A DNA stretch of 64,000 nt, from the NCBI GenBank assembly GCA_030248135.1, contig JASANC010002762.1, positions 84,247 through 148,246 on the forward strand, written 5' to 3'. Below are positions 35,927 to 51,152 of the stretch, piece by piece; positions within the stretch are counted from its first letter, which is position 1; each line of letters opens with the position of its first letter. Made by a program: the position numbers and the translations under genes. The notes beneath the pieces were generated by a model that searched no databases, had not been told where the DNA came from, and saw nothing but the letters and a program-made list of their open reading frames with translations. Source of the stretch: Theristus sp. LFF4_11 (Eukaryota; Nematoda; Chromadorea; Monhysterida; Xyalidae).

Positions 35927-38900
35927 ATCTGGCTGTACAATCGTTATCGATCTCTGCGCTGTGATTTCCTGGATTACTTGCTTGCGCAACACAACGACCA
36001 TCTGTTGCCGACGTATCGCGCCATTAAAAATGGTAGTGTTTCAAATCTACTTTTGCCATTCAGTGCATCCGATTGGTCGACGAGTTGGCAGGAAGTCACG
36101 CAACAGCCGTTCTCAGTGTGTTTCGTTTCTGTCGCATTTGAATGCGACGTTCTAATTCGTAGTCTTTGTGCTGTGCTTTTCTTCAAACATTGTAGCACGT
36201 GTGCCAGTGTGCCTCCTTGTTGGCAACTGTGCAGCAAAAGTGTTGTGATACTGAAGATGAGGCGTGAATGTGAAAGAGTTGTACAGTATGGCCGAATAAG
36301 TAAGGCAGTCCATCAAGGCGGGATCCGTCGCAGACTAGAGGTTGACTTTTTCAAAAATGCCAACAAAATTCCTAATCATGTGTGCAAGGGAAAAAGAAAT
36401 GAACATAATAGCAAGAAGAATCCATTAGTTAAAAAAACGCGTCAAATTTGGCATACAATTAGGTTTCTAAACGTCTTTTGTCTTTCATTCAAATTTCGCG
36501 CGCTCCTTGCACCCTGAAAAAACTGCCATGTTTACTCGGCCATTCCGTACGGTTCTGAGTCGACGTTGTTGTAAAGATTAGAAAAATGTATGAAAACTAA
36601 GCTCATGTTTTGTCTGATAAGCTTCATGCGTGTGTTGAAAATTCATGAAACGTAAACATATAAAACTTGTTGCATTGCGTCTTGAAAACGAAATTTTATG
36701 GATGCTTGTCGGTTTTGTTAGAATAAAATATATGTGTTACGTGGTCTGCGTCATCATGCGTTGAAAGAAAACAAGAGATGCAACATATGGCATCCCCTGC
36801 GGGAGTCGAACCCGCGACCTTTGGATTAGAACTTTGGATCATTCAATGATCAAAGAGCTCGAGGGCGAGCCGAACGATTCGCCAGGCTATACGCATTGCG
36901 TTAGTGCATGTGGCTGCTGGGCAATACCCATATTAACAAAAAGCAAGATATTCATCTAACCGTCAACGAATTCCGCCGGTCGATCACGTGACGAAAACAC
37001 CAGAGAAACATGAATCGACTCGCCAACATGTTCAGAAAATCAACAAGTGCACGCGGTCAATCGGACGACATTGATCCTCCACCGCCGTACTCACCGGATG
37101 ATAAGCCGACGCCACCACCTGTTGACCTGAAGAATCAGACTGTGATCTGTTATATCAAAGGATCACTGACAGTCACGACAGAAAGCACAAAAGAACGTGC
37201 CGGATTGCGTTCCGTAGTCACGCATTTGACTTGTCAGGAGATGAAATCATGTCCGGGCCGCTATGCGCTATTTGCGACGCTAATGGATGCGACAACTGCA
37301 CCGCCTGTGACGATGCGCTCAGCGACAATGTCGTGGTCATACGGAAAGAACATCTATGACCATCGATGGGCGCAAATTGATCAGATCAACATCGACAGCG
37401 AGAAAGATTTCAAGCGCCACGCAAAGGGCAATGGATTTGAGCGCGATTGCAAACAAGGTGTCATTAAGCGCTCTGGTTCTGCACGCGGCGAGAACAATCA
37501 GATGTACGACTATAGTGCATCATTGCGCTATCAAATCAGCGTTGTTCCGACTGATGAGCTCAGTACCAAGTTCGATGACATCAATCGTGCGATCTTGTTC
37601 CGCTATGATGCACGTGTCATCAATGACATCAAGGCGCACTGCCCGGTGTGGCTGAAGAGGAGGAGCAAGCTGGAACGAGCGCGATTCAGGTGGTTCGCAG
37701 ACGACAGGGTCTTGAGTAAATTACAACACTTTAAGGGCTGTTCAGTTGTCAGTTGAAAAAAGAGGCACTTATTTGCATTTGAATCAACACCTTTTAGAGT
37801 ATTTCACGTGCATTTTTATCTATATGTCGTGTTTTCTAAACCTTTGATTTTTGTTTCTGTCTCTTTAATCTGTGTTTGTGTAAGTACCTTGAAGGCCACG
37901 GCGAAACTGTCCACCATGCTGATAATACACGCGCTGAGATTACGTCGTTTGCTTTGCAAGCCAATTTATCCTTTGTGTCGAAGCACCAACTGTTCAGTGT
38001 GGGGCACAGGGGTTCGGACGGTGCAGGTTATTACCAAACTGGGTGGCCTGACTTGGCATTTGCCGGACTGTTGTACGGATCATGGGTGCAAAGAATCGTA
38101 CTGATTGCTGTGGTCATTTTTTTCGTGCTAATTGTTGTTCGCATTATTATTGGAATTCTGTTTTGAATATTTGTCACAACCAGCATCTTTTTCAAACATT
38201 GATCTCCTTTTTGGGGAGTGTTGTAAAGATTAGAAAAATGTATGAAAACTAAGCTCATGTTTTGTCTGATAAGCTTCATGCGTGTGTTGAAAATTCATGA
38301 AACGTAAACATATAAAACTTGTTGCATTGCGTCTTGAAAACGAAATTTTATGGATGCTTGTCGGTTTTGTTAGAATAAAATATATGTGTTACGTGGTCTG
38401 CGTCATCATGCGTTGAAAGAAAACAAGAGATGCAACAGACGTCTTCACTGGCAGACTGACTTGGTGTCCGTGCGTTGCTTGCAGACCCCTCGCAGCAACA
38501 AAAACGTCGTCGCCGTCTGCATGTGCCCGAGTTCAAAGGGCCACAGTACCTGGCGCTCGGGCACGAACGCAACGACGCAGCAGAGCTCCCGGCGACCGTT
38601 GACGAACAATTTTACCGTGAACTGCAATATCTGACGTTTGAAGATCGCATTCGTGGTCAGTGAAAGTCCACTTTCTTTCAGTTTGCGCTCTTTTGGTATC
38701 CGCTGAAAAACGTGTCATTTTTCTTCGGTTCGGACAAACTGCACGTATTTCACTGGATCTCAGCATTTGCTTTCCTTTGCCGACTTCACTCACGCGAGAG
38801 TTGCCGTGTGAATTTTTTTACGACATCATTATTTCACTTATATAATGTTCAGCGGAGATGAAAAAGGCTTACCTTTGGTGGGAAAATGAATTTTGCGATA

Positions 38901-49734: not shown

Positions 49735-51152
49735 CTAGCCTATTGACCCGAGCTTATGTGGCTTAATCAATGCCAAGCCTTTTTGGTGAAGTGGCATTGA
49801 CTTAGAAAGAAAAAACAGTAACGTTTACTGAATAATAACCCTGAAGAAAATTTACCTTGTGCTGCCGTGAAGTCGCCTACAATACAATATTTTTTAATGT
49901 ATTTAAATAAATAAAAAATGCGAAGTTTATGATTTTGCTATTTTTACCCGTTCACCCTAACCGAAGGCAAGCCTTTTTGTAAGTGAAGTAAAATTGAATA
50001 AAAAAATATAAAAACTAACGTTTTTTAATTTACCCGTTTTAAAAAGCTAATGCTTTTTTACCCGTTTACCTAAGCCAAGCCTTTTTTTGTAAATTGAAAA
50101 TGCGAAGTTTATGATTCTGCCATTTTTTACCCGTTCACCCTAACCTAAGTCAAGCCTTTTTGAATGTAAAGTAAGATTGAATAAAAAACATAAAAATTAA
50201 CGTTTTTTACAATTACCCGATTTAAAAAGCTAATGCTTCTTTTACCCGTTTACCTAAGCCAAGCCTTTTTTGCAAAGTGAAAATGCGAAGTTAATGATTT
50301 TGCTATTTTTACCCGTTCACCCTAACCTAAGTCAAGCCTTTTTGTAAGTTAAGTAAGATTGAATAAAAAATATAAAAATCAACGTTTTTTCATAAAAAAT
50401 ACCCGTTTTAAAAAGCTAATGCTTCTTTTACCCGGTGACCCTAACATAAGCCAAGCCTTTTTTGTAAAGTGAACATGCATAGAAGAAACAAAAAAGTGAC
50501 GTTTATAATTTCGTTTTGCAGTTTTGCTTCTTTTTACCCGTTCACCCCAACATGACCCAAACATGTTGCAAAGTAAAATGAATGGTAAATACCATTTCGA
50601 CCCAATTAAAAAACTAACTTTTTTTCAGAGACAGTTTTGTTACATCTTTCGCAGTCGCTCGTCAAGTTTTGAGCAGCAAAAATTGCCAGTTGCCCATCGT
50701 GCGTTACGTTGAAATTATCGCTCATAACCACGGAGTATCAATTTGAAAATGAAACATGGAGTATCAATTTCAATGAAATTTACTTGTTTTGAATCCAAAG
50801 TGCAACTTGCAATGCCGATGTCGATGTGCGTTTTGCAACCCGATTTTTAAAAACAAAAAAGTTCAAACTTTTTTCAAAGACGGTTTTGTTACATCTTTCC
50901 CAGTCGATCATCAAGTTTTATCAGCCACGCTTCCATTTGCCTGTGCTGCGCTGAACTGTCTCTGTTGACCAAAGAGTATCATGATGACTCCAGCTATGAA
51001 GAGCGACATTTTGAGAAAACAATCTCAACTGGCATTATTAAAAAAAGGTTAAGGAAATTGAGATGGAGTTTTCTTAAGTAGCAAAAAAGGGCGCCAATTC
51101 AAATTGCAAAAAAGTGCCACGCACAGACAGACACTTTGTAAATTTAATAATA
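49735..51152 (-). mobile_element. Helitron-like element H2' (minus strand)
   Basis: Inverted counterpart of 58812-60080. Reading the minus strand it ends GGGTCAATAGGCTAG, a Helitron-type CTAG 3' end. It contains ~110-bp tandem blocks alternating AAAAAGGCTTGGCTTA-type and GGTAAAAA...GCATTAGC-type sequence (49930-50520). Non-coding. Confidence 0.7.

Follow-up and report, generated by a model that had tools for sequence, protein, structure and literature searches.

The window analysed here is a stretch of 64,000 nucleotides from the nematode Theristus sp. LFF4_11 (assembly GCA_030248135.1; contig JASANC010002762.1, positions 84,247 to 148,246, forward strand), part of contig C1779 in our numbering of this assembly of 159 Mb and 3,744 contigs. 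At 36562-38442 it contains a short long terminal repeat (LTR) retroelement. The element is enclosed by two copies of the target-site duplication GACGT (36562-36566 and 38438-38442), both read from the sequence. Its plus-strand LTRs (36567-36785 and 38219-38437), recovered by sequence reading and by an LTR search of the assembly, are identical at 219 of 219 bases, start with TGTTG and end with CAACA; the 5' LTR carries TATAAA at 36659 and AATAAA at 36722. Two bases past the 5' LTR begins the primer-binding site (36788-36831, plus strand), which is complementary to the 44 bases at the 3' end of tRNA-Arg(UCU), CCA included, and ends inside the anticodon loop. It is followed, all on the plus strand, by junction bases (36832-36839; CTTTGGAT recurs in the primer site just upstream), an 84-bp piece of a Phlebovirus_G2-type envelope (env) gene (36840-36923), a 1,007-bp foreign segment (36924-37930) with an intact open reading frame (ORF) of 248 codons from ATG to stop (37010-37756), and the 3' end of the parent env (37931-38218), comprising its transmembrane end with the stop at 38166, the leader to the 3' LTR and a purine tract. 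The latter (GGGGAG) spans only about six bases, since the stretch just 5' of the 3' LTR ends CTCCTTTTTGGGGAG. The direct LTR pair, the short inverted tips, the target-site duplication, the tRNA primer site adjoining the 5' LTR and the purine tract adjoining the 3' LTR are those of an LTR retrotransposon. Sequence reading thus confirmed what had been described in an initial annotation of this DNA, including the PPPY motif of the ORF, the frame with a hydrophobic end that stops 52 bp short of the 3' LTR, and the missing gag-pol: the interior of 1,433 bp consists of env pieces, tRNA complement and the foreign part. Terminal-repeat retrotransposons in miniature (TRIM) and large retrotransposon derivatives (LARD) are non-autonomous elements with LTRs and a primer site and with little or no coding sequence; the window element is non-autonomous, yet holds the intact ORF.

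The insertion is real and recent. In the assembly, the window LTR has 17 matches with the window pair included, the others being an identical LTR at C1673, one with 95% identity at C2605, two solo LTRs (86% and 85%) and 12 shorter pieces, some of which may perhaps belong to another repeat. As further copies exist and the two solo LTRs have 5-bp duplications of their own (AGCCA at C2239, CTACC at C1362), we conclude that the LTR family has moved, as initially proposed from the identical LTRs. C1673 shares the 3' LTR and the 3' flank of the window element with 99.4% identity over 7.76 kb (25 mismatches, 8 gap openings). The insertion thus seems to be present on a second haplotype as well. C1673 departs from the window 64 bp ahead of the 3' LTR, close to where the contig itself ends; the divergence may be a genuine second structure or a faulty join. 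The first approximately 500 bases of C1673 (L013:1-577) resemble repeats at window positions 50404 and 59569. A rearranged copy of the same LTR family lies in C788 (L017) inside a tandem-repeat array; read on the minus strand, it starts with the first bases of the LTR, continues with sequence resembling env and with the end of the LTR plus primer site, and closes with the LTR start in inverted orientation.

Two pieces of the interior could be traced to an env gene. C2605 carries a long env frame matching Phlebovirus_G2 in Pfam (E 7.6e-53 and 8.9e-28 for its two halves). The 84 bp at 36840-36923 are 100% identical to L012:847-930 and the 288 bp at 37931-38218 are 99% identical to L012:1781-2067; in the env frame of C2605 the two pieces stand in the same order, at residues 242-269 and from residue 553 onward. 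Between them, 850 parental env bases have been swapped for the 1,007 foreign bases. Because collinear env pieces flank a foreign middle, we regard the window element as a recombinant deletion derivative of an env-bearing element, from which gag, pol and most of env are missing. The frame formerly described as an env-like anchor is therefore genuinely env-derived, but it is the remnant end of a parent env whose middle was replaced. Among the profile matches listed in the genome are 31 to Phlebovirus_G2 and 32 to Peptidase_A17, which we take to be a marker of BEL/Pao pol, and for 12 of the 31 env matches the open frame is equal in length to that of a Peptidase_A17 match on the same contig. These 12 frames are candidates for the helper element postulated in the initial annotation; none was found with the window LTR and some may be haplotype copies of each other. 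The full-length element expected to share this LTR did not materialise: no pol-bearing copy with the window LTR was found in the assembly, and C2605 starts inside env. For this reason we infer BEL descent from env, and with a 1,433-bp interior devoid of pol the element is called a BEL/Pao derivative and not a member with its own pol.

No relative of the foreign segment was found in the assembly. A DNA search, in which simple repeats and very common words were skipped, gave no second match to the 1,007 bp. At the protein level the assembly, with its many BEL-type copies, yielded for the 248-residue product no match other than the ORF itself. A gag fragment was rejected for the ORF as no BEL-type copy was matched, and an autonomous or new-class element was rejected as the interior was found once. 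The idea of a new class with a recurrent layout is thus not supported, since the LTR recurs but the ORF and its flanks were found once; what makes the element interesting is the capture, more than any claim to a new minimal class. The initial interpretation is partly supported on the whole: the LTR is not confined to this locus and the ORF is not recognisably gag, but the interior did prove to be a deletion derivative of a larger element.

A captured RNA-virus gene is our best reading of the foreign segment. As to the product of the ORF we can only guess; support for a matrix protein of rhabdovirus type is weak and mixed. Rhabdovirus matrix proteins carry a late-domain PPxY motif near the N terminus and comprise about 200-250 residues; the predicted product has PPPPYSP within its first 30 residues and is 248 residues long. 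In a viral fold search, 7 matrix- or M-named proteins were found among the 50 rows shown, together with 4 further unnamed proteins from rhabdo-related or rhabdo-like viruses, an enrichment that is non-significant. The N-terminal PPPPY, the length and these rows are what led us to a candidate viral matrix-type protein. The product matched no Pfam family up to E 5 and no curated matrix family, and the confidence of the structure model is very low, that of a trimmed model being worse (pLDDT, predicted local distance difference test score, 33.3). Against the matrix reading, the enrichment was not repeated with the trimmed model, whose viral list was unhelpful, and the PDB fold list was likewise unhelpful. 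A protein collection gave 258 candidates for the ORF and none at E 1 or better; this silence weighs little, since the env half with a Pfam E value of 8.9e-28 was also missed there (952 candidates, none at E 0.001). Nothing related to the ORF turned up among the viral contigs scanned, and a search for rhabdovirus nucleocapsid gave no match in this genome or in the controls.

The primer site turned out to be unusually long. Compared with the genome's own tRNA-Arg(UCU) gene plus CCA, its complement extends over 44 bases without mismatch and 46 with one. A tRNA gene at this place was rejected, as ARAGORN finds no tRNA in the window, and a tRNA gene or short interspersed element was rejected because the match starts with the CCA complement, which is absent from both tRNA-Arg genes; Rfam at gathering thresholds gave no match within the window. 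Throughout the assembly, 27 places match the 18-base tRNA-Arg(UCU) complement with at most one mismatch, and 24 of them were read (C84, C3028 and C142:37642 were left out), most by a script tolerating a few mismatches and two (C3113, C142:36115) by eye. The complement spans 17-21 bases at 12 sites, 31-32 at 2 and 38-54 at 10, the usual length being about 18. At C3178 the match continues beyond a 5-base insertion, and the site was placed among the long ones for that reason. Some of the sites represent copies or haplotypes within a single family (C109/C1270/C2553, C2415/C3530, C2665/C2693 and C142/C1424), which lowers the number of independent cases. A search with 46 bases yielded four more long matches beyond the 24 (C70, C2938, C1748 and C2100). 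Both LTRs were identified for six long-tail elements (the window element, C1738, C1611, C3178, C115 and C2246), five of which measure 0.8-2.5 kb; the sixth, C2246, measures 6.35 kb and opens with integrase. L046, L048 and L051-L053 were scanned for open frames only.

Three of these elements have contents of their own. C2246 (L050, minus strand) has identical 223-bp LTRs and an open frame that runs from the tRNA complement into integrase, DUF5641 and a Phlebovirus_G2 env, and for this reason we consider it devoid of gag and reverse transcriptase; a 349-residue ORF after env matches OSK weakly (E 0.0096). The element at C1738:6036-7179 (L044) comprises 1,144 bp with LTRs 99% alike, the duplication GAATT and a tRNA complement of 50 bases; its frame of 180 residues gives a GDSL-lipase and an OSK-like match (E 2.3e-6 and 3.6e-6, below the curated cut-offs). 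The 2.5-kb element at C1611:29354-31883 (L045) holds a 202-residue ORF continuing from the tRNA complement and a 106-residue frame with a hydrophobic segment and a basic tail, and TTAGGG-like strings lie inside the element; neither frame has a significant Pfam match.

A further member of this set provides the strongest support for viral capture. The 1,834-bp element at C3178:87583-89415 (L047, minus strand) has LTRs that are 91% alike and a long tRNA-Arg complement, and within about 25 bases past the tRNA tail an open stretch begins that resembles PB1, the orthomyxovirus polymerase protein. A piece of 119 residues matches the PB1 profile with E 1.2e-5 and 24.1 bits, below the curated cut-off of 26.4, whereas 133 residues reach E 1e-7 and 31 bits over profile positions 470-604. 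The same region of two PDB polymerase sequences is matched at E 2.5e-4, followed by designed ankyrin proteins at E 0.019 and worse. A second PB1-like match lies at C2192 (profile 279-358, E 1.8e-9); downstream of it is a frame-broken stretch with 62, 55 and 76% protein identity to the C3178 fragment in three pieces. Together they form two collinear PB1-like places at C2192:56863-57857 (L069, L070), the downstream one being frameshifted. PF00602 (PB1) was found at 2 places in this genome, C3178 and C2192, and in none of 14 control genomes. Given both matches, orthomyxovirus-like sequence has entered this genome, and one LTR-flanked element holds it inside. The duplication of C3178 is imperfect (CCAAC/CCAGC) and its LTR family differs from that of the window element; the latter is complete with an unproven viral identity, and C3178 has a good virus match with an imperfect duplication. 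A second, acidic frame of 154 residues in C3178 has no Pfam match.

But how could a foreign ORF come to replace the middle of an env gene? On balance, we think that the window element is probably a recombinant and deleted derivative of an env-bearing element of the BEL/Pao kind, which captured foreign RNA by template switching, with a negative-strand virus as the likely source. This reading follows from the identical LTRs, the GACGT duplication, the collinear env pieces and the lack of other matches to the foreign part in the assembly, and from the other short LTR elements that share the long tRNA-Arg complement, including C3178 with its PB1-like stretch. A single round of reverse transcription inside a particle supplied by an intact helper would suffice: the enzyme would leave the element RNA at the 3' end of env, continue on a foreign RNA, copy about 1 kb including a complete ORF and return to env further upstream. 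Gag, pol and the greater part of env would be lost when the product was joined to the end with LTR and primer site, and ordinary integration would make the duplication. The source would most likely be an exogenous negative-strand RNA virus, with a rhabdovirus-type matrix gene as best guess.

The last join may be related to the tRNA tail. Position k of the complement corresponds to tRNA position 77-k, so that a complement of 18 bases ends just before tRNA position 58, one of 40 at position 37, one of 44 just before 32 and one of 50 just before 26; positions 32 and 26 presumably may carry blocking modifications. According to an excerpt on human immunodeficiency virus type 1 (HIV-1), plus-strand strong-stop DNA normally stops before m1A58 (18 bases) with a minor product at ms2t6A37, methyltransferase mutation leads to extension past A58, and some viruses have a short primer over-extension sequence (PMC13191261). 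Here, strong-stop DNA may have passed the m1A58 stop into the anticodon loop, and its tRNA-copied tail may have primed at ectopic places in minus-strand DNA, itself a product of switching between element RNA and foreign RNA. The anticodon-loop product of HIV-1 is said in that excerpt not to be an active template (PMC13191261), whereas here 38-54 bases of tRNA complement have become a permanent part of genomic elements.

Instead of a read-through scar, the long complement could also be a primer-binding site kept long by selection, or one that serves tRNA 3' halves, and we rate this as a serious possibility short of probable. It recurs across several LTR families and in C3178, C115 and C1611, where the two LTRs of each pair differ by 7-9%. 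The retroelement at C754, with an open frame of 3,094 residues, retains a discontinuous tail near its start: after 10 bases of tRNA-Arg complement comes a stretch resembling the complement of a part deeper in the tRNA, as if the T-arm portion had been skipped (L058:687-715). A long site is nevertheless not required, as half of the sites read stop at 17-21 bases, and the tails end at varying positions, as expected of stops. In C1655 a short-tail site lies 171 bases before Peptidase_A17, so that loss of gag and reverse transcriptase is not confined to long tails.

We regard it as unlikely that a retroelement with no other copy in the assembly contributed the ORF as an accessory gene, in which case two retroelements would have recombined without any virus. 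Extra ORFs do occur in local retroelements, as seen from the GDSL- and OSK-like frame of C1738 and the weak OSK match of C2246, and LTR elements of bdelloid rotifers likewise carry them (PMC5408684); however, the assembly offers neither a second copy nor a relative despite its numerous Phlebovirus_G2 and Peptidase_A17 matches. Slightly less credible still is a captured host mRNA, that is, a cellular gene retro-transduced via template switching. The same insertion architecture would be expected, the foreign piece is not set apart by codon and dinucleotide composition, and since the codon usage of the ORF is approximately as close to retroelement frames as these are to each other, nothing marks it as non-host. 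A parent gene should then be present, but none was detected by protein or DNA search of an assembly that may be incomplete and in which a gene in small exons could escape. An assembly artefact is very improbable: the foreign part is present once and C1673, the apparent other haplotype, differs close to the 3' LTR, but identical LTRs and a perfect duplication enclose the whole, both env pieces are in order, and the divergence of C1673 falls where that contig ends, within sequence resembling window repeats.

Captures of this kind have precedents, which we compare here as far as excerpts of the cited papers go. In infected mouse cells and mice, partial sequence of the arenavirus lymphocytic choriomeningitis virus, a non-retroviral RNA virus, recombined with an intracisternal A-type particle LTR retrotransposon and integrated (Geuking et al., via the review PMC3205384), and no endogenous copy is known according to that review. 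The window element resembles this RNA-virus/LTR-retrotransposon recombinant, though its viral origin is unproven; it differs as an inherited insertion with both LTRs and a foreign piece between two env parts. AeBunya1 of Aedes aegypti is a bunyavirus-like integration within a full-length Pao-Bel element (PMC5497376). There as here, with the same reservation, foreign sequence lies inside a BEL/Pao or putatively BEL/Pao-derived element of a germline genome, whereas the host element of the window is deleted and short and the foreign ORF takes the place of the env middle. TelKA2n of bdelloid rotifers, a non-autonomous LTR family, retains part of gag and an env ORF (PMC5408684); like it and the GDSL-bearing bdelloid elements, the elements described here keep env-like ORFs non-autonomously and carry extra ORFs, but in the window element nothing of gag and pol and little of env remains, and its intact ORF is foreign. 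TRIM are described as small non-autonomous LTR elements with a primer site, a purine tract and a short internal domain (PMC3532108, PMC6934838), traits the window element shares except for its 1,433-bp interior with an intact ORF. Among the titles and opening lines of abstracts listed in searches of open-licence papers, none reported a matrix gene or PB1 in a short LTR element or such long tRNA complements.

Tentatively, we suggest that BEL-type reverse transcription of this lineage repeatedly captures genes of negative-strand RNA viruses into LTR-flanked elements, a matrix-type gene in the window and PB1 at C3178, with over-extended strong-stop DNA copied from tRNA-Arg acting as ectopic primer and a tRNA complement of 38-54 bases remaining as scar. 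If true, this complement would be a readable mark of the fusion of LTR and tRNA tail to viral or internal complementary DNA, and its length could flag failed strand transfers in other genomes. For RNA viruses without reverse transcriptase, the route into host genomes is often inferred from scars of the long interspersed element type; the LTR route would be recorded directly by elements in which two LTRs and a target duplication enclose a viral insert. Driven by an LTR promoter, a captured ORF that is still intact could moreover be expressed, and its effect on the host or on related viruses would be testable.
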